From an uncultured beta proteobacterium (GTDB taxonomy: Bacteria; Pseudomonadota; Gammaproteobacteria; Burkholderiales; Burkholderiaceae_B): DNA of 36,975 nt. The stretch covers positions 1-36,975 of the forward strand of contig CAIJKV010000047.1 in assembly GCA_903821335.1 (NCBI GenBank), in the 5' to 3' direction. Positions 24,162-36,975 of this stretch are shown one piece after another. The notes beneath the pieces are model-generated. The model was given only the letters and a program-made list of their open reading frames with translations, was not told where the DNA came from and searched no databases. How positions within the stretch are numbered: position 1 is the first letter of the stretch; the number at the start of each line of letters is the position of its first letter. The position numbers and the translations under genes were made by a program.

Positions 24162-24914
24162 ATGCTGGATCAGGTCCTATCCATCACGCTGATCTCCCTG
24201 ATTTTCCTGCTTGCCGGACTGGTCAAGGGCGTACTCGGGATGGGGCTGCCCACCGTCGCCATCGGCATCCTCGGGCTTGTCATTGCACCGGTCGAGGCGG
24301 CCGCGATGCTGGTGCTGCCGTCACTCATCACCAACATGTGGCAACTCTGGGCGGGCCCCAGTTTCGTGACACTCAGCAAGCGTTTCTGGGTCTTGCTGGT
24401 CGGGATCTGCCTGGGCACGCCCATCGGCGTCAGTTTCATCACCAGTGGGTCGGTGCAGATTGTCTCGACATTTCTTGGCACGGTCCTGACTGCCTATGGA
24501 TTGTTCGGGCTGTCACGCAAGCACTTTTCGGTTTCCCCAACATCGGAAAAATGGGCCTCCCCTGTCACAGGTTTTTTTACGGGCATCCTGATGGGCGCAA
24601 CCGGAATTTCCGCCTTGCCAGCAGCGCCCTATTTCGTCGCACTGAACCTGAAAAAAGATGACCTGATCCAGGCGCTGGGCTTGTCGTTTACGGTGTCGTC
24701 TTTCGCGCTTGCGGTGGGGTTGCTGGCCACCGGGCAATTCCAGATGTCGGTCGCAGGCAGTTCATTACTGGCGCTGATCCCGGCTTTTGCAGGGATGTTC
24801 GTCGGACAGGCTGTCCGTGATCGTTTGCCACAAAATATTTTCCGCCTATGTTTTTATGCCGGGCTTGTGATGCTCGGCTGCTACATGGCCATCCACGCAC
24901 AGGGAATTGTCTGA
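24162..24914 (+). CDS. TauE/SafE (TSUP) family membrane exporter
   Basis: A 250-residue membrane protein with about eight hydrophobic helices in two similar halves. LLAGLVKGVLGMGLPTVAIGIL in the first and FTGILMGATGISALPAAPYFVAL in the second are the repeated G-x-G-rich TSUP signatures. Members move sulfite, sulfoacetate, or other small organic anions; the substrate here is unknown. AAAGG is upstream of the ATG. The amidohydrolase gene starts four bases after its stop, so this is the first gene of a three-gene operon with a crotonase-like gene. Confidence 0.85.
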   Translation: MLDQVLSITLISLIFLLAGLVKGVLGMGLPTVAIGILGLVIAPVEAAAMLVLPSLITNMWQLWAGPSFVTLSKRFWVLLVGICLGTPIGVSFITSGSVQIVSTFLGTVLTAYGLFGLSRKHFSVSPTSEKWASPVTGFFTGILMGATGISALPAAPYFVALNLKKDDLIQALGLSFTVSSFALAVGLLATGQFQMSVAGSSLLALIPAFAGMFVGQAVRDRLPQNIFRLCFYAGLVMLGCYMAIHAQGIV

Positions 24915-24918
24915 CACC

Positions 24919-25779
24919 ATGCCTTTTTCTATTTCTCATTCAGCGGGCATCCAAAAGCCCTTGACGACCGTACCCGACAATGCCTGTGACGCCCATATCC
25001 ATCTCTACGACGCACGACTCGCGCCGCCGGGCGCGCTGGGCATGCTCGAGCATGCCACGGCTGACGATTACCGCCTGGTGCAGCAGCGCCTGGGGACGAC
25101 CCGCACGGTGATCGTCAACCCACGCGCCTGCCAGACCGACAATCGCGTGACGCTCGATGGCATCGTCCGGTTGGGCCGTGCGCAGACGCGCGGCGTGGCA
25201 GTCGTGCGTGCGGATGTCACGGACCAGGAATTATGTAGTCTGGATGAAGGCGGCATCTGTGGCATCCGGTTCAGCCTGTACCAGCCTGACAACGCAGCGG
25301 TCAGTTTCGAGATGGTCCAGCCTCTCGCCCGGCGTGTTGCGGCGCTTGGCTGGCATGTCCAGTTGCACTGGACGGCAGACCAGATCGTTGAACACCAGGA
25401 CATGCTCAGGCGCCTGCCGTCGACGATTGTTTTTGATCATCTGGCGAGGTTGCCCATGCCTCAGGGCATTTCGCATCCTGCGCATGCAATCGTGTGTGAA
25501 CTGCTCGACCAGGGGCGCACGTGGATCAAGCTTTCCGGTGCCTATCTTGATTCCGCTGTTGGCGAGCAACAAGGCTATCGTGACCTTGACCCCGTGGCCC
25601 AAAGCTGGCTGTCGCAAGCGCCCGACCGGCTGGTCTGGGGCAGTGACTGGCCCCACCCGACCGAGAAGGTCAAGCCCAACGACGCTGACCTGATGGATGT
25701 GCTGGGTCGCTGGGCCGGTGAGCCGTCCTTGCTCAAAAAAGTCCTGGTTGATAATCCTGCAAGTCTGTATGGATTTTAG
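24919..25779 (+). CDS. Amidohydrolase-2 family metal hydrolase (PDC-lactonase-like)
   Basis: I use the ATG at 24919; a TTG at 24907 in frame overlaps the preceding stop. The 286-residue TIM-barrel protein has the amidohydrolase marks CDAHIHLYD (His26/His28), WHVQLHW, IVFDHLAR and VWGSDWPHPT (catalytic Asp). The pattern follows 2-pyrone-4,6-dicarboxylate lactonase (LigI) and related hydrolases that open lactones or decarboxylate aromatic intermediates. It sits between a TSUP exporter and a crotonase-like protein, suggesting breakdown of a cyclic organic acid. Exact substrate unknown. Confidence 0.85.
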   Translation: MPFSISHSAGIQKPLTTVPDNACDAHIHLYDARLAPPGALGMLEHATADDYRLVQQRLGTTRTVIVNPRACQTDNRVTLDGIVRLGRAQTRGVAVVRADVTDQELCSLDEGGICGIRFSLYQPDNAAVSFEMVQPLARRVAALGWHVQLHWTADQIVEHQDMLRRLPSTIVFDHLARLPMPQGISHPAHAIVCELLDQGRTWIKLSGAYLDSAVGEQQGYRDLDPVAQSWLSQAPDRLVWGSDWPHPTEKVKPNDADLMDVLGRWAGEPSLLKKVLVDNPASLYGF

Positions 25780-25814
25780 GGTCGTACGCATCACGAAAAA
25801 AATTGGAGACAGAC

Positions 25815-26597
25815 ATGGGTGAATTGCTGATTGAGAAAAAAGGTGCTGTTGGAATCATTACATTTTCCAACCCCAACAAGATGAACGCCATGTCGGTCCA
25901 GATGTGGACCGACCTGCCCAAGGCGATTCAGGCGTTTGACGCTGACCCGGCGGTGCGCGTCATCGTGCTGGTCGGGCAGGGCGACAAGGCCTTTGTGTCG
26001 GGAGCCGATATTTCTCAGTTTGACCAGCTCCGCAGTTCGGCCCAGGGCCAGGAGGCCTACGAGGTCGCGGTCTCAGCCTCGATGGATGCGCCGGTCAACT
26101 GTTCCAAACCGGTCATCGCAAAGATACGCGGATTTTGTTTCGGCGGTGGTCTGGGCCTCGCGGCAGCCTGCGATATCCGCCTTTGCTCGGCGGACGCCAC
26201 CTTTCGCATGCCGGCCGCACGCCTGGGGTTGGGCTACGGACACGAAGGCATCAAGCGCTTTACCGACATCCTCGGGTTGGCCAACGCGACCGATATTTTT
26301 GTAACCGCTCGCCGCTTTGATGCACCAGACGCGCTGCGCATGGGGTTCGTGTCCAGGGTGTGCGCGGCAAGCGAGCTCGACGCGGTGGTCGACACGTACA
26401 CCACGAATATTTCTGAAAACGCACCGCTGACGGTTGCCGCCAGCAAATACAACATCAGGCAAGTCTGCGCGCACCCTGATGATCAGGATATCGAGGGTGC
26501 CGTGGCGATGGTGCTCAAGTGTTTCGCAAGTGAAGACTTCCGGGAAGGCCGGGCAGCCTTCCTGGAAAAACGTCCAGCCCAGTTCAAGGGGCGCTGA
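25815..26597 (+). CDS. Crotonase-superfamily protein lacking both catalytic glutamates
   Basis: I choose the ATG at 25815 with TGGAGAC five bases before it, giving 260 residues; the TTG at 25803 is less likely. The fold is clear: GIITFSNPNKMNAMS, FVSGADISQF (oxyanion loop) and IRGFCFGGGLGLAAACDIRLCS. In the aligned rat crotonase positions Glu144 is Gly (GGGLGLA against GGGCELA) and Glu164 is Ala (MPAARLG against QPEILLG). Simple enoyl-CoA hydration is thus unlikely; dehalogenase-, decarboxylase- or hydrolase-type reactions of the superfamily are options. Last gene of the TSUP operon. Confidence 0.85.
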   Translation: MGELLIEKKGAVGIITFSNPNKMNAMSVQMWTDLPKAIQAFDADPAVRVIVLVGQGDKAFVSGADISQFDQLRSSAQGQEAYEVAVSASMDAPVNCSKPVIAKIRGFCFGGGLGLAAACDIRLCSADATFRMPAARLGLGYGHEGIKRFTDILGLANATDIFVTARRFDAPDALRMGFVSRVCAASELDAVVDTYTTNISENAPLTVAASKYNIRQVCAHPDDQDIEGAVAMVLKCFASEDFREGRAAFLEKRPAQFKGR

Positions 26598-26631
26598 AGA
26601 CGTTTGGCGTCGGGGCTGCGTGGCGTTGCAT

Positions 26632-26648
26632 GCCAGCGTTACGCTGGC
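26632..26648. terminator. Hairpin holding the CoA-transferase stop codon in its loop
   Basis: GCCAGCG-TTA-CGCTGGC is a perfect 7-bp stem with a 3-nt loop. The loop read on the minus strand is TAA, the stop codon of the CoA-transferase gene. It lies between two convergent genes 41 bp apart and may end transcription in both directions, though no T run follows. Confidence 0.45.
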
Positions 26649-27874
26649 GCGTCACGCAGTTCCATGCACGCCTGCGCCTGAAGCAGGCGCGCGAATTCAT
26701 CGGGTTGCACGCCAAACGCCCGCAACACTTCGCGCGTATGTTGGCCCAGCATCGGTGCCGCTTCGCGCGCGGGGTGATTGGCGCCATTGAATAGAATCGG
26801 CAAGCCCAGTGACTGCATCACGCCACCATTGGCATTGTCTGCTTCGATCACCATGTTCAACGCATGCGTTTGTGGATGATTGAGGGCTTCGCCCACGTTC
26901 TGCACCGGGCCGGCAGGCACGCCCGCTGCGAGAAATTTTTCTTCCCAGTACGCGCGCGTGTGGCTGCCCAGCACTTCATTGAACAAGCCTTCTAGCGCGA
27001 GGCGATTGCCGATCCTGTTCTTGGGCGAGTCAAAACGCGGGTCCTGATCCCACTCGGGTTTGTTGAGGACTTCGACGATTTTTTTCCATATCGTATTGTT
27101 TCCGCCGCCGATCGCAAGCTCGCCGTCTGAGCAGCAAAAGGTCTGGTAGGGCGCGATCAACGGATGCGCGGTTCCCAATCGCGTTGGCAGCACGCCGCTC
27201 GCGAGAAACGCGGCGGCTTGCCAGTACAACTGTTGAATCGATGCCTGGAGCAGGGACGTCTGCACCCATTGCCCCTTGCCGGTTCGCAGACGATAGATAT
27301 AGGCACTGAGCGTGCCCAGTGCGGCAAGAATACCTGCGTTGATATCGGCAGTGGGCACACCGGGCTTGACGGGTGCGCGGTCTGGCTCGCCCGTGACGCT
27401 GATCAGGCCGCTAAAGGCCTGCAAGACCAGGTCAAACCCACCACGGCTGCTCAACGGGCCTTGCGAGCCATAGCCGCTGACCGAGACGACGATGAGTTTG
27501 GGATTGATGCGGATCAGGTCCAGCGGGGCCAGCCCCAGACGCGCCAACACACCCGGACGATAGTTTTCCGTGACGACATCGACCTGCTGCAGCATTCTGA
27601 GCAGGGTCTCCCGACCAAGGGGTGCCTTGAGGTCCAGTGCGACAGATTTTTTACCGCGATTGATCATCTGGAACGAGGCCGGCATTTCGCGTGCGCCGCC
27701 CGAACTATTGAAGGCGCGTGCGTCGTCTCCACCCGGGAATTTCTCGATCTTGATGACTTCGGCACCCAGGTCACCCAGCATCAGACCGCAGATGGGGCCG
27801 GCCATGATTTGCGACAACTCGAGTACGCGCATGCCCTCCAGAGGGCGCAGCGGATCTGGCATCGATTCAGCCAT
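26639..27874 (-). CDS. CaiB/BaiF-family CoA-transferase (class III)
   Basis: This 411-residue protein has the class III CoA-transferase signature: LEGMRVLELSQIMAGPICG, LGDLGAEVIKIEKFPGGDDAR, NRGKKSVALDLK, VVTENYRPGVLARLGL, and TADINAGILAALG containing the Asp expected to form the acyl-enzyme anhydride. These enzymes move CoA between carboxylic acids such as formyl, succinyl, itaconyl or carnitine-type acids. The start at 27874 has a second Met (MPDPLRPL) four codons in. It follows the Bug receptor gene by 37 bp on the same strand, so uptake of a carboxylate and its CoA activation are plausibly linked. Confidence 0.9.
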   Translation of the reverse strand: MAESMPDPLRPLEGMRVLELSQIMAGPICGLMLGDLGAEVIKIEKFPGGDDARAFNSSGGAREMPASFQMINRGKKSVALDLKAPLGRETLLRMLQQVDVVTENYRPGVLARLGLAPLDLIRINPKLIVVSVSGYGSQGPLSSRGGFDLVLQAFSGLISVTGEPDRAPVKPGVPTADINAGILAALGTLSAYIYRLRTGKGQWVQTSLLQASIQQLYWQAAAFLASGVLPTRLGTAHPLIAPYQTFCCSDGELAIGGGNNTIWKKIVEVLNKPEWDQDPRFDSPKNRIGNRLALEGLFNEVLGSHTRAYWEEKFLAAGVPAGPVQNVGEALNHPQTHALNMVIEADNANGGVMQSLGLPILFNGANHPAREAAPMLGQHTREVLRAFGVQPDEFARLLQAQACMELRDAPA

Positions 27875-27911
27875 CAGGTTTTTCTCAAGAGTTTGGTGTG
27901 GTGCGGCGCGC

Positions 27912-28883
27912 TCATTCGGGCTTCATGCCCGTCGCTTTCACAATCTCACTGGACACGGCATAGTCCGCCTCAATATATTGTTTGAATGCGTTGGCATCCA
28001 TATGCCCGACCTCGCCGCCCAGGCTGGCGACCCTGGATTTGACGTCAGCGTTGGCCAGTACTTTCATCACCGCCTGACTCAACGCCTGCGCCTGTGCTTC
28101 TGTTGTCCCCCCGGGTGCCATCAGCCCGATGAAGGTCAGGTGTTCAAAATCCGGCAGGCCGTATTCGGCAGCGGCAGGAATGGTCTCGGCGCCGGGCCAG
28201 CGCTTTTTCGAAGTCACCGCCAGAGGACGAATTTTGCCAGCCTTGATCAAGGGCATGGCGGCCACCAGGGAAGACACTGCGACCGGAATCTGACCACCTG
28301 CGAGGTCCGTAAGCGACGGACCCGAGCCGCGGTAGGGGGCATGGACCAGCTTGACGCCCGCTGCCTTCTCAAGAAGTTCGCCCGCGATGTGACTGGGTGT
28401 ACCGATGCCGGCACTGCCATAGGTAATGGTGTCAGGCCGCTTTTTCGCATCAGCCAGTAACTGGTCGAGCGACATGTAGACAGAGTTGGCTGGCACGACA
28501 ACAACGCTAGGCCCCCACATCAGGTCGGCGATCGGCACCAAGTCGCTGATTTTGTAGCCGGCGTCGGCAAACAGTGTCGGATTGATGGTGTGGTTATTGG
28601 CCGTCACCAACAGGGTCGTGCCATCAGGGGGGGCCTTGGCCACGAGTTGTGTGGCAAGGTTGCCGCCGCCTCCGGGTTTGTTTTCGACCACCACGACGGT
28701 GTCGAGCAACGGGCCAAGTTTTTCACCCACCAGGCGCGCCATGGCGTCTGCGCTGCCGCCAGGGGCCACAATCACGACCAGGCGAATGGGTGGGCCAGCG
28801 GCCTGCGCGAGGTGAGTCATGCTACCCAGACTCAGGCTGGCCAATAGGGCAAATAGCAGTCGGGGCCATCCGGATCGTTTCAT
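27912..28883 (-). CDS. Bug-family tripartite tricarboxylate transporter receptor
   Basis: Start chosen at ATG 28883, with AAGGAGA upstream; it opens a signal peptide (residues 1-28, cleavage near AQA-AGPP). The 323-residue product has IRLVVIVAPGGSADAMARLV, VENKPGGGGNLATQLVAKAPPDG, ITYGSAGIGTPSHIAGELLEKAAG, VHAPYRGSGPSLTDLAGGQI and the tail SEIVKATGMKPE, all Bug features. The ligand-loop sequence differs from that of the other Bug receptor at 5191, so they likely bind different ligands. It heads a two-gene unit with the CaiB-type enzyme and is divergent from the thioesterase gene. Confidence 0.9.
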   Translation of the reverse strand: MKRSGWPRLLFALLASLSLGSMTHLAQAAGPPIRLVVIVAPGGSADAMARLVGEKLGPLLDTVVVVENKPGGGGNLATQLVAKAPPDGTTLLVTANNHTINPTLFADAGYKISDLVPIADLMWGPSVVVVPANSVYMSLDQLLADAKKRPDTITYGSAGIGTPSHIAGELLEKAAGVKLVHAPYRGSGPSLTDLAGGQIPVAVSSLVAAMPLIKAGKIRPLAVTSKKRWPGAETIPAAAEYGLPDFEHLTFIGLMAPGGTTEAQAQALSQAVMKVLANADVKSRVASLGGEVGHMDANAFKQYIEADYAVSSEIVKATGMKPE

Positions 28884-28930
28884 GCTGTCTCCTTGCCGTC
28901 GCTCAGGCGAGTGCAAATTTTTTTAATTTT

Positions 28931-29517: not shown

Positions 29518-31110
29518 TTGACCAATCAACTGGTAACGCTACAACCGAACGTCGTCATCGAACCCCTGGTTGAGCGCTGGTACGCATGGTCACACTTGAT
29601 ATCCCCAGCCACGGCTGCCATGAACATTCCGTTCCGACACCTGACCTTGCTTGAGTCCTTTGTCAGCGCACCGGATGTGCATGCCGCAGCATGCAGCAAT
29701 CCGAGTTTGCGTGGCGGGCCCTTCGTGGATCTTCCCGCCACTGAGGTCGAGGCTGTCCGGTCGCTGATCCAGACCACCCAAGCCAGGCAGGCACTGCAAA
29801 TCGCGTTTGGCGAAGGTCTGCGCGATGCCTACCGGTTAATTCTCAAGCAGGCTGATGGCTTTAGTATCGAACAGCATTACGCCAGTTTGCCAGCACCTGT
29901 GCGTGGCTATGTTGAGTTGGTTTACACACTTGGCGGCTATCCAGACTTGCGGGTCATCGAGCCTTTGCTCTACCGCAGTCCGATTAATAACAAAGCGGCC
30001 CAAAGCGCCATAATTTACCGCGCAAATGGCGATGAGCGGGCCTTCGCCTTCAGCACACCGCGCATGCCACGACCGGATGCCTATGAATTGCAGCATGCGT
30101 TTGACTCCGATATTTATGATTTCCTGGGTCGTTTACGTGCCCAACCCATGCCAGAGGCGGCCGTGCTTGAGCGTCTGGGTCTGACGGGTGCCGACGCAGA
30201 GCTCTTCCGAAGTTTCCTGACCGACGCGCCTCTGGAATCGCGCACCGACTCCCGACCCGCCGGTCGCACGCGCTGGCGCTACTTTGGCCATGCCTGTGTG
30301 CTGGTTGAGTCGGCGAGCGGCGCAAACGTATTGGTTGACCCCATCATTGCCTACGATGCAAATGGTGGGATCAAGCGCTTTGTCCTGGCAGACCTGCCTG
30401 ACCACATTGATTACGTTGTCCTGACGCATAATCATGCCGATCATGTCCTCATCGAAACCCTGCTGGCCCTGCGTTACAAAATCGGCACGATTGTCGTGCC
30501 GGCGAGCGCAGGCAGTCTGGCCGACCCATCTCTCAAGTTGATGCTCGAGTCCATCGGCTTCAAACACGTGATAGAACTTGGGGTGCTGGGTTCGGTCGAG
30601 CACGATGATCTGCGTGTCACGGCGCTGCCTTTCCTGGGTGAGCATGGGGACCTGGATATTCGCTCAAAGGCTGCCTGGCTTGTCCAGGCCAGTGGTCATC
30701 AGCTGTTGTTTGCCGCCGACAGCAACAACCTGGAGCCGGTTCTTTATGACCAGCTGCGCACCATCTTCGGGCAAATTGACACGCTCTTTATCGGTATGGA
30801 GTGCCTGGGCGCACCCTTTAGCTGGACCTATGGCCCACTATTACCGATCGCGGTTGATCGCAAAAAAGACCAGTCGCGCCGTTTGAATGGCTCTGACTTT
30901 ACCCGTGGCATGAAAGTCGTCACGAGTCTCGGTTGCCAGAAGGTCTATATCTATGCCATGGGTGCCGAGCCCTGGTTGCAGTATGTGACCAGCATCAATC
31001 CAGACGAAAATACGCCGCCCGTCGTCAACGCCAGGCAACTGGTTGCTGCTTGCAAAGAAATGGGGCTGACTGCAGAGCGCCTGTATGGGTGCGCCGACGT
31101 GGTGCTATAG
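29518..31110 (+). CDS. CmlA-like diiron beta-hydroxylase (metallo-beta-lactamase fold), NRPS-associated
   Basis: This 530-residue protein starts with TTG at 29518, seven bases after TAAGGA; the next Met is at residue 35. An N-terminal domain of about 240 residues precedes a metallo-beta-lactamase fold: RYFGHACVLVES, VLVDPII, THNHADH with His304, His306, Asp308 and His309, FLGEHGDLD with Glu375, and LLFAADSNN with Asp401. Length and ligand order match CmlA, the oxygenase that beta-hydroxylates a carrier-bound amino acid in chloramphenicol synthesis (ligands about H305, H307, D309, H310, E377, D403), including the Glu that replaces a normal MBL His. FIGMECLGAPFSWTYGPLL is a conserved-looking later segment. 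I infer hydroxylation of an aminoacyl-S-carrier on the adjacent NRPS. Confidence 0.85.
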   Translation: MTNQLVTLQPNVVIEPLVERWYAWSHLISPATAAMNIPFRHLTLLESFVSAPDVHAAACSNPSLRGGPFVDLPATEVEAVRSLIQTTQARQALQIAFGEGLRDAYRLILKQADGFSIEQHYASLPAPVRGYVELVYTLGGYPDLRVIEPLLYRSPINNKAAQSAIIYRANGDERAFAFSTPRMPRPDAYELQHAFDSDIYDFLGRLRAQPMPEAAVLERLGLTGADAELFRSFLTDAPLESRTDSRPAGRTRWRYFGHACVLVESASGANVLVDPIIAYDANGGIKRFVLADLPDHIDYVVLTHNHADHVLIETLLALRYKIGTIVVPASAGSLADPSLKLMLESIGFKHVIELGVLGSVEHDDLRVTALPFLGEHGDLDIRSKAAWLVQASGHQLLFAADSNNLEPVLYDQLRTIFGQIDTLFIGMECLGAPFSWTYGPLLPIAVDRKKDQSRRLNGSDFTRGMKVVTSLGCQKVYIYAMGAEPWLQYVTSINPDENTPPVVNARQLVAACKEMGLTAERLYGCADVVL

Positions 31111-31146: not shown

Positions 31147-32010
31147 TCATGACCGACGCTGCCGCTGGCGCCAACGTGACAGGGCATAGAGGTAGCTCGC
31201 TTGCGGGGTACACGCGTAGCGCCAGAGCGGGGCGACCTTCCAGAACCGATTCACCGAGCAAATATAATCGTTGCCCAGTGATTCAATCTCGTGCCACCAG
31301 CCCAGCGGAATATAAAGGGTTTCGCCCGCAGTCAGTTCGACAATCTGCCTGTGGTGCAACGCCTGCGCCAGTTTTGGATACGTGTCAAAGTCTGGCTGGT
31401 CGATGTAGACCTGACTGAAGTTGGGCGTCAGCCCGCCATGCGACAGGGGAAAGGGGTAGAGGCCCGCTTGAATGGAAGGTGGGAAAAGCGAGACACGTTT
31501 GGTTCCATGGAACTGTGACAGTGTGCCGTCCTGGCCGTCGTAGTGCAGGGGCTCGACGTGACCGCCCGGGCCGACCCAGAGATTGACGTCGTTAGGCAAA
31601 CGACGCACCAGACCCGTATGGGCCGCAATGGCGTCAATCGCCGGCCCGATAATCTGGCGCAAGGGCGTTTGACCCATCTCAACCATTGCCAGATAGAGGT
31701 GGTCACGTGCTGCGACGCCATTGTCAAGCAAAGCACAATAGTCTGCTACGGTCAGTGTTGTTGTTTCGCAGTAAGTCTTCCATTGCGCTTTGGGGCGGTC
31801 AAAACGACCCGTTCCATAGCACCTGATCGGGACCCCCATCTGGCCAACGTGGGAGAGCAGCGCGTCGATGTTGAGCGCAGGTGTCGCGTCCAGAGCGCCA
31901 GTGATGACGACCGGAGTCCCTTTGCGCTGAAAGTCCCTGTGAAACCGGGCCGGCGTCAGGTCCTGAATGGAAACACGGGGAACCTGTCCGGAATCTTGCT
32001 GTGGGCTCAT
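31147..32010 (-). CDS. JmjC/cupin-8 Fe(II)/2-oxoglutarate dioxygenase
   Basis: I take the Met at 32010 (MSPQQDSGQVPRV), since an upstream Met at 32091 would overlap the previous gene. The 287-residue protein is a cupin-like JmjC domain: TPVVITGALDATPAL, NLWVGPGGHVEPLHYDGQDG with His156 and Asp158, FHGTKRVSLFPP with a Lys placed to bind 2-oxoglutarate, LTAGETLYIPLGWWHEIES with His240. The HxD...H iron triad is intact. Relatives include the asparagine hydroxylase FIH and many NRPS-linked hydroxylases. It is the last gene of the minus-strand NRPS operon, 31 bp after the hydroxylase fusion. Confidence 0.85.
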   Translation of the reverse strand: MSPQQDSGQVPRVSIQDLTPARFHRDFQRKGTPVVITGALDATPALNIDALLSHVGQMGVPIRCYGTGRFDRPKAQWKTYCETTTLTVADYCALLDNGVAARDHLYLAMVEMGQTPLRQIIGPAIDAIAAHTGLVRRLPNDVNLWVGPGGHVEPLHYDGQDGTLSQFHGTKRVSLFPPSIQAGLYPFPLSHGGLTPNFSQVYIDQPDFDTYPKLAQALHHRQIVELTAGETLYIPLGWWHEIESLGNDYICSVNRFWKVAPLWRYACTPQASYLYALSRWRQRQRRS

Positions 32011-32041: not shown

Positions 32042-33790
32042 TCAAGCGCCACCTTCCTTCGACGACTGCAACGCCTGCCGGTCACGTCCATTCAGAAAAT
32101 CAGGCCGCTGAAGTTGACCGGACGAAATCGGGGTGTTGCTGATCGCGTTGTAGGTGAGGATGACCAAACGCCTGCTGTGCGGTGAAATATTTGCCTGTGA
32201 GGCGTGCACGAGATTCCCGTGAAACCAGACCGCGGTACCTTTTTTCCCTGTCGCAGAAAACAGGCCGCCCTGCTCAACCAGTTGCTGCACTTGCGCCTGC
32301 GTGACTTGATACGTGAGCGACGCACTGACGTTGCCTTCCCAGCCAGCGGGAGCTTCGGTCGATTTTTGCGAATCTATACAACCCACCCGATGCGATCCGG
32401 GAATAAAAAACAGCGGGCCGTTGAATTCGGTGATGTCATCGAGGAAGATCATGACGCTGACAATCGCGTCGGTTGGCACCTGGTCTTCGTTGCGCCAATA
32501 GATGTAGTCCTGATGCCAGGGCCACATCTCACCAGAAAAGGCTTGCTTGAGGTTGACTTTAAGTTGGTGAATGTACACGTCATCGTTCAAAATCTGTCGC
32601 GCCGGTTCCAGCATTTCAGGCCGTCGGATCAAGGCATCAAAGTCTTCGTCGTACAAATGGCAGCCATGAAAGGCGCGGTAACTCTTGCCATGCTGCTCAA
32701 GGATATGTCCAGGATGGGACTGTTGTTCAAACTGGCTGATGCGATCAAGGAGTTTGTCGACAGCCGATGCGCAGAGCAGTCTGGACTGCACCAGGAATCC
32801 ATCACGGTGGTAGGCGGCCAAGTCTTTTTCCGCAAGACACGGCGTTAAGGACTCGGGTTGGCCGTATGTCGCAACGGCTGCGGTGGCTGCTGTTTTCGCT
32901 GCCTTCAGTCGGTGATAGGTGCCCAGTCCGCGGTGAAGGACGTGATCGGTTTCCGAGATTTCCCCCAGTGCGAAGACAGGCGCGTCGGCGAATGGCTCTG
33001 ACAGCAGGGCGAAATCATTGCGTGCCATCTCGGTCAGGTGCTCCAGGTCATCCAGCACAAAATAGGTATGTTGCAAATCATAAATCCAGAAGTCCGAACG
33101 CATCACACGGTCGACGTCAAACGCCAGCCTGTTGGGAGAATCGTCTTGCAGCGCAAACAGGATTTCTTTTTCAGACGAAGCGATCGCCGCGCCAAAACTG
33201 CGCAACCCATTGGGTTGCCTCACCAGACCGACCTCGACGGTGTACCAATACAGACGGGCGATGCGTTCGAGTAAATCTTTCTGGTCATGCTTGAACGCGC
33301 GCACGGCGGCAGCACCGCAGGCCTGGATGAAGTCCGCGATCACGGGGTACATCAACAGCGGGACGTGTCCAAAAATGTCATGGAACACGTCCGGGTATTC
33401 CTGGTAGTCAAGCTCATTGGGCTTGCGCATGTAACAACCAGCGGGAAAGCGTCGATTGGCGAGGTGTTCAAAAAACACTTCGTCTGGAACCAGACCAGGC
33501 ACGGCCACCACCTGCCAGCCGGTGTGACGCATCAGGCGTTCTGATAGTGACACGAAGTTTGGAATTTCGTCCGGCTCCATGGGGAGTTCAGCCAACCCAC
33601 GCACAAACAGGTCGCAGGTACGATCCGTCATCAGTTGCGTCATGCGGGCAAAGAGTACTTTCCACGTGTTGTGTTCTTCGGGCGTGTAGCGATGCCACTC
33701 CTGGTCGATCGTCCAGTCGCGACGCTCAGGCTGATAGCCCTCAACATTGACGGGATCCATGGGTGCCATATGACTGGGCTGGGTAAGCAT
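32042..33790 (-). CDS. Fusion of aromatic amino acid hydroxylase (PhhA-like) and PhyH-type 2-oxoglutarate dioxygenase
   Basis: A single 582-residue chain. Residues about 15-290 form a pterin-dependent aromatic amino acid hydroxylase core with VFHDIFGHVPLL (iron ligands His137 and His142) and RLYWYTVEVGL (Glu186), very like bacterial phenylalanine 4-monooxygenase; compared with it there is a loop about three residues longer between the ligands. An Ala/Thr-rich linker (about 296-310) leads to a PhyH dioxygenase (about 318-565) with YHRDGFLV, WPWHQDYIYW (His426, Asp428), GPLFFIPGSHRVG, distal His529 and Arg540/541 in SPHSRRLVIL for 2-oxoglutarate. All iron ligands of both domains are intact. The gene lies between the NRPS (58 bp) and JmjC genes. 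I infer two successive hydroxylations of an aromatic amino acid. Confidence 0.85.
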   Translation of the reverse strand: MLTQPSHMAPMDPVNVEGYQPERRDWTIDQEWHRYTPEEHNTWKVLFARMTQLMTDRTCDLFVRGLAELPMEPDEIPNFVSLSERLMRHTGWQVVAVPGLVPDEVFFEHLANRRFPAGCYMRKPNELDYQEYPDVFHDIFGHVPLLMYPVIADFIQACGAAAVRAFKHDQKDLLERIARLYWYTVEVGLVRQPNGLRSFGAAIASSEKEILFALQDDSPNRLAFDVDRVMRSDFWIYDLQHTYFVLDDLEHLTEMARNDFALLSEPFADAPVFALGEISETDHVLHRGLGTYHRLKAAKTAATAAVATYGQPESLTPCLAEKDLAAYHRDGFLVQSRLLCASAVDKLLDRISQFEQQSHPGHILEQHGKSYRAFHGCHLYDEDFDALIRRPEMLEPARQILNDDVYIHQLKVNLKQAFSGEMWPWHQDYIYWRNEDQVPTDAIVSVMIFLDDITEFNGPLFFIPGSHRVGCIDSQKSTEAPAGWEGNVSASLTYQVTQAQVQQLVEQGGLFSATGKKGTAVWFHGNLVHASQANISPHSRRLVILTYNAISNTPISSGQLQRPDFLNGRDRQALQSSKEGGA

Positions 33791-33848: not shown

Positions 33849-36800
33849 TTAGGTCAATAGGGTGATTGCAGCCTTTCTGCTTTTGTTCAGGTATTCACGG
33901 ATCACAGAGGCGATCACGGGTACCGCGCCTGGTTGCCACAGCATGTCGGAGTGTTTGGCTTGCAAGCCGACCACGGTGACGTCGCCACTGGTATACGGTT
34001 GCCAGTCAAACGCAGTGCTCAGAACAGGCGCCGGATCAAGCAACGCCCGGAACAGCAGAATAGGAGCCGCGGCTTGCCCGATGACATGACCAGCTGTCAG
34101 ATTTCTCGAACTGACTGATAGTTGCAGCAGTCGCTTGAACCAGTCAAGCGGGGTGCCGGGGGGAATCATTCCGACTTCAGCCATGTGGTCTCTGACCGCT
34201 GTCATCAGCAGGTCGTTTTCGATTGACAAATCACCCACATCAACCAGACCAGCATCGTTGGCGATCGCCAGCAGCAGGGTGCGCCTGCGTGCTTCGGAGC
34301 TGTCACCGGCCGGGCCGGACAGGGTTGTGGCTGTGTCGAGCAGAGCCAGCAGGGCGACCTCATGTCCAAGCGACTCCAGTTGGCAGGCAATCGCGTGCGC
34401 GATCGTGCCACCCAGAGATGTCCCGAGCAGATGGTAAGGTCCTTGAGGCTGCACCGAGCGGATTGCCGCGGCGTAGTCATCGACCAGTTCCTGCATGGTT
34501 TCATGCACGGATTCACCGTGTTCCAGTCCACGCGCTTGCAGCGCCCAGACCGGGTGATCTGACCCCAGGGCATCAGTCAGATTTTTATACACGGTACCGC
34601 TGCCGCCCGCAGGATGAATGCAAAAGAGCGTCGGTTGCGTGCCGGTCTTGCGCAGCGGCAATAGCGGTGTGTACACGCTGGTGCTGATCGCCTCAAGGTG
34701 CGGGGCAAGCTGCTCGGGGGTCGGAAATTCGAACAGCGTTCGCATGGCCAGCGACGCCACGCCTTCCTGGCGCAACCTGGCGATCAGACGCATCGCCAGC
34801 AAAGAATGGCCGCCGATTGCGAAAAAATTGTCGTCGAGTCCAACAGGGTCTGTCCCAGTGATCTCGCTGAACAGTCGGCACAATAAGGTTTGTTGTTCGG
34901 TCTTGGGGCCTCGGTAAGCCTTGGCGCTGACGCGCTGCCCTGGCGCTGGCAGGGCGCGACGATCAAGTTTGCCGTTTGGCGTCAGTGGCAAGCGATCCAG
35001 GGTTGTAAAGACCTCTGGAACCATGTAGTCGGGCAGACTCATGCTGATCGCGACCCGGACGCCGTCAACCAAGTGATCCTGCAGATGCTCGCGCAAGGGA
35101 TCGCTGGTGAGTGTGTGTGGCGACCGCGCACCCTCCGGGAACCAGTTCCGCAATGGCTGTTCTGGTTGCTCAAAAAGCGCATGCAGGCAGGCCAGGTCAG
35201 TTTGTGACCAGACCAGTCGCAGTCGCACACCGAGGCTGTCGGCGAGCAGGTACAGGAGATCAGGATCCATGGCGTGCTGTGCGGCGCGTGCTGCGAGCGT
35301 CTTGAGTTCGCCCGCTGAACCCGCAAACGTGTCGATTCTGGCCGCCGCCCATACGTCAGGGGCAATGCGCGCATTCGGGATGTGCAAGACTTCCAGCGAG
35401 GCCCCGAAGCCCGTGCTCAGGGTATGGCGCAGTTGTGTGATCGACTGCCACGACTGCGTCTGCACAGGCTTGAGTACGGTGAGGTCGTCGCGACGTGTCA
35501 GGGTGACGTCGTAACGCCACCGGGACATTTCGTTGAGATGGGCGCCGCGTTTGATCTGGGTCTCGACGACCGCATGCACGTGTGGCTGGCTGGCAAAGTC
35601 TGTAAAGAACGCCGGATCAATGAGTAGCTCGCGATCGGCACGCAGGCGATCCTTGATACGCAGGGCAATGTCTGACACGGGTTCTAGATCATCGGCCTGG
35701 AATAGCTCGACCGAAGTCCAGAATGCGTGGTGGTGCGCCAATGACCTGACGTCACCGACAAACAGCGCATGACTGCTGGCGCGCATGGCTGCATCGATTA
35801 CATGCCTGAGATAGCGGGCACTCGGGAAATATTGGACGACCGAATTCAGAATCACCAAGTCAAAAGTCTGATCGACAATGTCAGGTATGTCTTGAGCGGT
35901 GCGATGCTCAAGGCGCACGTTGTGCAGGCCGCGCGCGAGGACCAACGGCTCAAGTTTACGGATGGACTGTTCCGAGAGGTCCGTGCCGTAGTACTGGTCG
36001 ATCCCGCCGATGATTTTCCAGAGTATCAGTCCCGAACCCGAGCCAATTTCCCAGACATTGCGTGCCGCGATGGCCTGGATCCTGGCAATCGTCGTCTGCA
36101 GCCACTCAGCCATCTCTATGGCGGGAATGGCGACGCGCGAGTAGGTGCTGATCCAGATGCTGGTGTCAAAATCAACCTCGGTGGCAGCCGCATGTTGATA
36201 GCTTTCATCGTAGATTTGTTGCCACTGGTCTTGCAGCCGGTTTTCAGCTTGCTGGATCATCGCGGCGATGACGGGGGCACTTTCTTCCATGACGATATAG
36301 GACGCCAGCTGGGTGTTGCCAGCCGCGTTGCGCCGCGTGACCGTCACAGCTTGGCGCACGCCTTCACAGCCCAGAATGACGGCGTCGATCTCGCCGAGTT
36401 CAATGCGGTGTCCGCGAATTTTGACCTGATCGTCCGCACGTGCCAGGTAGGTGATCGCTCCGTCCGCGCGTCGGCGTGCCAGGTCTCCGGTCCGGTACAT
36501 GCGCGCACCTGGCTCGCCAAACGGGCAGGCGATGAAGCGTTCCGCAGTCAACCCCGCCCGATGCAGATAGCCGCGCGCCAGTGCCGGGCCAGCGATGTAA
36601 ATCTCACCGACCACCCCGTCAGGAACGGGTTCAAGTCGCTCATCAATAATGTAAATGTCGTAGCCTTCCAAGGGCTTGCCTATCGCTGCGGCAACCAGAG
36701 AACTTGACGCATCGTCTGGGCCAATGGCCTGCGTGCTGGCCCATACTGTTGCTTCGGTGGGGCCGTACAAATTCGTCACGGGCCCCACGGCTGACATTTG

Positions 36801-36975
36801 ACTCGCCAGATATGTTGGCAAGGCCTCGCCTCCAGACAAGAGTCGCAGTGGACGATTGATCGGTTCACCGAGAATCATTTCCCAGAGTGAAGGCGTTGCC
36901 TGGATCACCGAGATCTGGTGCTTGTCGATAGCCTGGCTGATCGCTTGCGGGTCACGGCTGGCGGCGCCGTCGAGC
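33849..36975 (-). CDS. NRPS terminal module: A domain interrupted by methyltransferase, carrier protein, thioesterase (N-terminus beyond window)
   Basis: The frame is open to the right edge, giving 1041 visible residues; the GTG at 36908 is not the start, because residues before it (AIDKHQISVIQ) continue the adenylation domain. Numbering from that codon: A5 NLYGPTEATVW (46-56), A6 GEIYIAGPALARGYL, A7 YRTGDL (138-143), A8 DDQVKIRGHRIELGEID (159-175), inserted methyltransferase (about 212-600) with motif VWEIGSGSG (285-293), A9 LPDYMVP (625-631), A10 NGKLDR (645-650), carrier FFAIGGHSLLAM with Ser702, type I thioesterase with GTSLGG (Ser831), Asp858 and His986. The insertion site after A8 is that of N-methyltransferases. 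It ends the assembly line and heads the operon that continues with the hydroxylase fusion. Confidence 0.9.
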   Translation of the reverse strand, partial: LDGAASRDPQAISQAIDKHQISVIQATPSLWEMILGEPINRPLRLLSGGEALPTYLASQMSAVGPVTNLYGPTEATVWASTQAIGPDDASSSLVAAAIGKPLEGYDIYIIDERLEPVPDGVVGEIYIAGPALARGYLHRAGLTAERFIACPFGEPGARMYRTGDLARRRADGAITYLARADDQVKIRGHRIELGEIDAVILGCEGVRQAVTVTRRNAAGNTQLASYIVMEESAPVIAAMIQQAENRLQDQWQQIYDESYQHAAATEVDFDTSIWISTYSRVAIPAIEMAEWLQTTIARIQAIAARNVWEIGSGSGLILWKIIGGIDQYYGTDLSEQSIRKLEPLVLARGLHNVRLEHRTAQDIPDIVDQTFDLVILNSVVQYFPSARYLRHVIDAAMRASSHALFVGDVRSLAHHHAFWTSVELFQADDLEPVSDIALRIKDRLRADRELLIDPAFFTDFASQPHVHAVVETQIKRGAHLNEMSRWRYDVTLTRRDDLTVLKPVQTQSWQSITQLRHTLSTGFGASLEVLHIPNARIAPDVWAAARIDTFAGSAGELKTLAARAAQHAMDPDLLYLLADSLGVRLRLVWSQTDLACLHALFEQPEQPLRNWFPEGARSPHTLTSDPLREHLQDHLVDGVRVAISMSLPDYMVPEVFTTLDRLPLTPNGKLDRRALPAPGQRVSAKAYRGPKTEQQTLLCRLFSEITGTDPVGLDDNFFAIGGHSLLAMRLIARLRQEGVASLAMRTLFEFPTPEQLAPHLEAISTSVYTPLLPLRKTGTQPTLFCIHPAGGSGTVYKNLTDALGSDHPVWALQARGLEHGESVHETMQELVDDYAAAIRSVQPQGPYHLLGTSLGGTIAHAIACQLESLGHEVALLALLDTATTLSGPAGDSSEARRRTLLLAIANDAGLVDVGDLSIENDLLMTAVRDHMAEVGMIPPGTPLDWFKRLLQLSVSSRNLTAGHVIGQAAAPILLFRALLDPAPVLSTAFDWQPYTSGDVTVVGLQAKHSDMLWQPGAVPVIASVIREYLNKSRKAAITLLT

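Follow-up and report, generated by a model that had tools for sequence, protein, structure and literature searches.

The locus described here raises the question of why two hydroxylases that draw on different cosubstrates are encoded as one polypeptide, and whether the two halves serve one reaction or two. It lies in the window, i.e., the whole stretch of 36,975 nucleotides that was analysed, whose host is a bacterium related to Zwartia, and the fusion is known from this one genome assembly (3.99 Mb in 408 contigs). The initial annotation, made from the letters of the window, had proposed a single-chain fusion of a pterin-dependent aromatic hydroxylase (PAH) and a 2-oxoglutarate dioxygenase (PhyH) without any frameshift. 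This was borne out by a 582-amino-acid open reading frame lying exactly at 32042..33790 on the minus strand, in which hmmscan against Pfam places both predicted domains, Biopterin_H (PF00351) at residues 34–267 (E 2.2e-42) and PhyH (PF05721) at residues 327–541 (E 1.3e-37). The PAH half (residues 1–292; 32915..33790, minus strand) carries the ligands His137, His142 and Glu186, the PhyH half (residues 321–582 and the stop; 32042..32830, minus strand) carries His426, Asp428 and His529 together with the Arg of an RPDF motif, and a junction (residues 293–320; 32831..32914, minus strand) joins them. Both iron ligand sets are complete, as the annotation had stated, and are conserved in 42 of 42 aligned PAH rows and 22 of 22 aligned PhyH rows, respectively, counts in which copies of the same gene are included. 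Judged from its sequence, the PAH half is predicted to use tetrahydropterin and the PhyH half 2-oxoglutarate; the view that two complete hydroxylases with separate cosubstrate systems share a single chain is supported. No description of a PAH–PhyH fusion was found in searches of an open-access full-text library, in agreement with the earlier remark that no characterised enzyme has this layout.

The fusion arose in the window lineage by the joining of two operon neighbours through the loss of a stop and a start. Relatives were gathered by one pattern-based scan of 84,980 species genomes, which gave nine, and three of these, all belonging to the genus of the window, have both halves: Zwartia panacis (L023), Z. 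vadi (L024) and an Alcaligenaceae MAG (L022). Their PAH and PhyH are separate genes, 30–33 bases apart and in the same order as in the window, with 64–67% identity to the PAH half and 66–70% to the PhyH half, and two of the three already have PhyH in the same frame as PAH. The PAH of both Zwartia species ends in QATAA and that of the MAG in CAVAA. Where these relatives have a TAA or TGA stop, the window reads GCC as codon 305, with all three bases changed (GTT as codon 306 when the alignment puts the 3-base difference downstream of the former stop); the former ATG of PhyH is absent, and the reading frame is preserved across the 3-base difference. Codons 256–323 hold no in-frame ATG, GTG or TTG, and since TTG at codon 324 and GTG at codon 334 persist as candidate starts after the junction, internal starts may exist. 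The Ala/Thr-rich linker noticed earlier, which is real, is thus the old PAH tail and the translated spacer, leading into the N-terminus of PhyH.

A single fused copy in a genome of 408 contigs could also be an assembly or sequencing artefact, and the fusion was indeed unseen in the other genomes searched. No further copy was found in the 32 genomes of the genus, among the matches listed for 300 genomes of the order (at most four candidates scored in each) and 268 genomes of the family (at most five), in seven genomes hit by the scan or in the 61 genomes of the search concerning the Polynucleobacter genome G563, sets which overlap; among plasmids, 0 of 120 matching records span 80% of the query. 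However, an artefact through one lost stop was considered and judged unlikely, as a one-base error would not account for a stop triplet that differs at three of three bases, a PhyH start that is also gone and a run of codons (256–323) free of in-frame starts, all with the frame intact. We therefore regard an artefact as very improbable.

The PAH half resembles a familiar enzyme with an altered pocket. Its closest solved structure by sequence is the phenylalanine 4-hydroxylase (Phe4H) of C. violaceum, and in an AlphaFold2 model of the whole chain, in which the PAH half was good (mostly pLDDT >90), it matches the fold of that enzyme (TMt ~0.9; 45–47% identity in the structure alignment with 1LTU and 3TK2). 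Fold, pterin and iron chemistry and iron ligands are alike, whereas the C. violaceum enzyme stands alone and has Phe, Gly and Glu where the window has Val187, Ala202 and Tyr132. The residue following the iron-ligand Glu is Val187, and Ala202 stands 15 positions further on. Across 64 non-redundant PAH rows, this Val and Ala pair occurs in ten and Phe with Gly, the state of Phe 4-hydroxylases, in 54 of the 54 others. The ten carry Tyr, Phe or Leu at position 132, where 53 of the 54 others have Glu (and the remaining one Gln), and at positions 50, 120, 130, 235 and 237 no residue is common to the two groups. The ten form one clade, with support of 100/95 from all columns (a bootstrap that the program itself calls rough) and of 90/90 and 92% of bootstrap trees when six trait columns were masked and 21 distant rows dropped. 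These trees were rooted by midpoint only, and the position of one member (L072) is unsure owing to its very long branch.

The clade also keeps distinctive company. Eight of its ten loci adjoin non-ribosomal peptide synthetase (NRPS), PKS-NRPS or thioesterase genes (the window, L046, L047, L054, L056, L069, L071 and L072), another (L055) adjoins PhyH and CmlA genes, and the last (L070) is truncated at the end of its contig. No adenylation motif was found by the 54 Phe/Gly PAHs, a weak control given that most flanks are only ~1.5 kb. We considered whether a catabolic PAH of the organism had been drawn into the fusion and judged it unlikely: no second PAH was found in the window genome besides that of the fusion, and the clade to which this one belongs is mostly NRPS-linked. 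The pterin recycling gene (PF01329) was uninformative as a link, being present in all 12 genomes that were checked for it, whether or not they have a PAH.

The changed positions are those discussed for the Phe 3-hydroxylase Phe3H (PacX), a characterised pterin enzyme that makes m-Tyr and which, like the window half, is a PAH-family member in a natural-product pathway, that of the uridyl peptide antibiotics (PMC7027792). According to that study, Cys187 of Phe3H replaces the ring-stacking Phe of Phe 4-hydroxylases and Thr202 replaces Gly, the two positions set meta regiochemistry, and mutants at position 202 yield part para product. The window has Val and Ala in place of Cys and Thr, and its 187 and 202 were equated with C187 and T202 of Phe3H from the text of that paper and the equal spacing of 15, rather than by an alignment with PacX. 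In both enzymes the residue is smaller than Phe at the first position and larger than Gly at the second, and because the size changes match in direction, it is plausible that the PAH half hydroxylates the ring off the para position. There is some support for the earlier proposal that Phe is converted to an isomer of tyrosine, in that both regiochemistry positions are changed; against it, the PAH half still scores above the cut-off of the Phe 4-hydroxylase family TIGR01267 (280.2 bits against 264.75), so plain Tyr formation is possible, while it falls just below that of NF008877 (246.6 against 247).

On the latter reading the PAH half would be an ordinary Phe 4-hydroxylase supplying L-Tyr, its pocket changes being neutral or rate-tuning. 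The TIGR01267 score and the identity to the C. violaceum enzyme speak for it, as does the finding that Phe3H itself is just 24–28% identical to characterised Phe4Hs (PMC7027792). Nevertheless, we consider it the less likely reading, given residues at 187 and 202 that are fixed in every other PAH row and replaced in every member of the clade, a Glu132 that is likewise replaced, and the association of most clade loci with NRPS, PKS-NRPS or thioesterase genes. Since the window half is up to 59% identical to Phe/Gly-type PAHs, against the 24–28% that Phe3H shares with Phe4Hs, the clade probably has an origin separate from Phe3H. It is conceivable, though less likely than not, that the Val187/Ala202/Tyr132 clade is an independent second route to m- or o-Tyr within the Phe4H branch, which in the window would have been joined to a proline hydroxylase, one polypeptide then providing two different unusual residues for one assembly line.

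For the PhyH half, the whole-chain model was poor because its alignment was shallow, and the half was therefore folded alone with 20 rows (pLDDT 88.9). The best PDB matches of this model are the trans-3/4-proline hydroxylase H11 (7DZZ, 8H7Y; TM ~0.9, 38–39% identity, rmsd 2.1–2.8 in the top rows), then GriE, the L-leucine 5-hydroxylase of griselimycin, in complex with L-leucine (5NCI; TM 0.9, 35% identity, rmsd 1.5), then EctD. At the level of models, the fold comparison cannot choose between proline and leucine, as TM is equal and the rmsd to GriE is smaller. At the sequence level H11 leads GriE (224 against 189 bits), and a HGCHLY stretch is common to the PhyH half and H11 and lacking from GriE. 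The HxD...H ligands and the PhyH fold are those of free amino acid hydroxylases, and the Arg of RPDF aligns, counted along the alignment, with Arg242 of GriE, which binds the leucine carboxylate (PMC5676206). The ectoine hydroxylase family TIGR02408 is scored at 161.9 bits against a cut-off of 336.5. From the H11 score, the HGCHLY stretch and the carboxylate Arg, the best guess is that the PhyH half acts on a free amino acid, with proline first; H11 itself stands alone, whereas here the half is fused and its substrate predicted. A text search of the literature for 7DZZ found nothing related.

It is possible instead that the substrate is leucine, as for GriE and on the way to methylproline, or another residue such as Asn. 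The model fits GriE as well as H11, and an Asn-like adenylation code, DA(S/T)K..EVGK, is found in the PhyH-bearing genomes G000, G303, G316 and G319. However, no counterpart of the GriE partner, the dehydrogenase GriF, is among the annotated neighbours, and the sequence scores and the HGCHLY stretch favour H11, which leaves this alternative less likely than proline.

The setting of the fusion is the end of an NRPS cluster, with the last NRPS module upstream (A-MT-T-TE; 33849..36974, minus strand, cut by the contig end) and two oxygenases downstream. One is a Cupin_8 (JmjC-like) oxygenase with a HYD motif (31147..32010, minus strand), whose reading frame opens at 32091, overlapping the fusion, and whose likely start is the second Met. 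The other, a CmlA-type di-iron beta-hydroxylase (29518..31110, plus strand), has the CmlA_N domain (PF18456) and a metallo-beta-lactamase fold, as other enzymes of its type, shows a HNHADH motif and lies outside the fused chain. Z. panacis has the cluster in full, with two NRPS proteins (3258 and 6498 amino acids) and seven adenylation domains, followed by PAH, PhyH and cupin genes in that order, with CmlA on the opposite strand. Modules matching those of Z. panacis are found in the window genome on contigs C107, C108 and C263, where module order is established for modules 1–4 (contig C107), the others lying on separate contigs. The adenylation codes, which were read by hand, are DGQTLV(A/G)VCK (module 1), DVWH..(M/L)IHK (module 2, from G000 and G328), DAQL(V/I)TLVVK (module 3), DVWH..LIDK (module 4), DAWTLVAVCK (module 5), DASKYIEVGK or DATKLIEVGK (module 6) and, in Z. 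panacis, DILQMVMVWK (module 7). The last module of the window shows its code minus the first three letters, with a readable end QLSLVW. We take these codes to stand for an aromatic residue, a Ser/Thr-like residue, a Pro-like residue, Ser, a Phe-like residue, an Asn-like residue and a Gly-like residue with N-methylation, respectively. No paper was found that describes a Zwartia or Polynucleobacter peptide or this NRPS cluster. Bordering the cluster, at 24162-28916 of the window, are TauE, amidohydrolase, enoyl-CoA hydratase, CoA-transferase and TctC genes, which look like ordinary acid metabolism rather than peptide biosynthesis.

Taken with this cluster, the fusion may be a two-in-one enzyme that supplies building blocks to a seven-module NRPS, a reading to which we give a probability of about 0.48. 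In it, free L-Phe would be the substrate of the PAH half, whose tetrahydropterin-dependent ring hydroxylation would probably fall outside the para position or at least not be confined to it, and module 1 would load what it makes. The PhyH half with 2-oxoglutarate would act on another free amino acid, with hydroxylation of L-proline at C3 or C4 the most likely case, and module 3 would load the result. The fusion would then couple the two supplies in amount and place, with no need for channelling of one substrate. Two building blocks are probable because the PhyH half resembles H11 and GriE and because the third module of the NRPS looks proline-like. In the genus, that module or one with a similar proline-type code is present in six of the eight genomes with a PhyH orthologue (G000, G303, G330, G328, G313 and G316; two others, G319 and G322, were covered only in part). 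Points against the two-supply reading are the TIGR01267 score, the association of PAH with PhyH across the genus (see below), a genome (G318) with a proline-like module without a PhyH orthologue and the tie in fold between H11 and GriE. Moreover, a single step of a pathway is often served by genes that adjoin each other or are fused.

For module 1, the DGQT code was found in G000 (the window genome), G303, G330, G328, G563 and G564, which are exactly the genomes with the PAH of the window or one 51–67% identical to it. It was absent from the best one or two matches of each of ten other genomes, four of which carry more distant PAHs of the clade. The coincidence of code and close PAH (Fisher p 1e-4, uncorrected for kinship) is in part owed to shared descent.

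The initial annotation had favoured channelled double hydroxylation, in which one aromatic amino acid would pass from the PAH half, which hydroxylates the ring, to the PhyH half for a second position. That the halves are fused or adjacent in four genomes is in keeping with it, and so is their distribution in the 32 genomes of the genus, where they co-occur above chance. Here PhyH orthologues were counted at ≥58% identity (matches of ~35% and less excluded) and cupin orthologues at ≥59%, and a partial PAH match in G323 was excluded. On these terms a clade-type PAH is present in seven genomes (G000, G303, G330, G328, G313, G301 and G325), PhyH in eight (G000, G303, G330, G328, G313, G316, G319 and G322) and the cupin in seven, all seven of which have PhyH. 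CmlA is found in 13, covering all those with the cupin or PhyH. Five genomes have both PAH and PhyH, two PAH alone (G301 and G325; 99 and 98% complete), three PhyH alone (G316, G319 and G322; 91, 86 and 76% complete) and 22 neither (p 0.005, uncorrected for kinship). PAH is also associated with the cupin (p 0.002), and the association of PhyH with the cupin is stronger (p 2e-6; both among the 32 genomes). The PAH–PhyH association is as expected of members of one kind of cluster, from which either can be missing.

Against channelling, the relatives encode the halves separately and each is found without the other. Outside the genus, the Polynucleobacter genome G563 has them on different contigs, G564 has PAH only and G942 PhyH only. 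The two belong to different clusters in G313, with PhyH and the cupin on contig C29 and PAH on C26, where it adjoins a hybrid synthase that combines adenylation, acyltransferase, dehydratase and ketoreductase domains. Furthermore, the nearest structures to the PhyH half act on proline, leucine and ectoine, the first two as free amino acids, and a second hydroxylation of the aromatic residue has another candidate in the CmlA-type enzyme of the cluster, a role that we presume. Channelling is thus improbable, and supply of two separate building blocks remains the preferred reading.

The fusion alone is a modest novelty, a natural case of a pterin and a 2-oxoglutarate system on one chain that would serve one NRPS, and more notable is the PAH clade, in which the pocket is altered. 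Residue-by-residue tests of ring position have been blurred by the low identity of Phe3H to Phe4Hs. With a clade inside the Phe4H branch that differs at few fixed positions, the question would become testable with close pairs.

Related loci show further variation. In G316 a carbamoyltransferase (L049:9121-10965) lies between the NRPS and the PhyH–cupin pair, and no PAH match was found; this is a related cluster with other tailoring. In a Polynucleobacter locus, a clade PAH is separated from an NRPS module of the DGQT type by a second, more distant PhyH (L054:9844-10665). The tailoring genes of G328 (L055:4948-8351, G328:C24:4793-5623) are rearranged: the split PAH–PhyH pair and CmlA adjoin ParA and ABC genes, and the cupin shares a contig with the thioesterase module of the NRPS. 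Genes of similar sizes near the start of the NRPS or PAH recur in several genomes (L055:343-4685, L063:13874-16888, L066:10659-14848); those of the first encode SPFH/Band_7, ABC ATPase (543 amino acids), DUF697 and ParA-like proteins, one of the second is ParA-like, and together they may form an accessory unit of the cluster.
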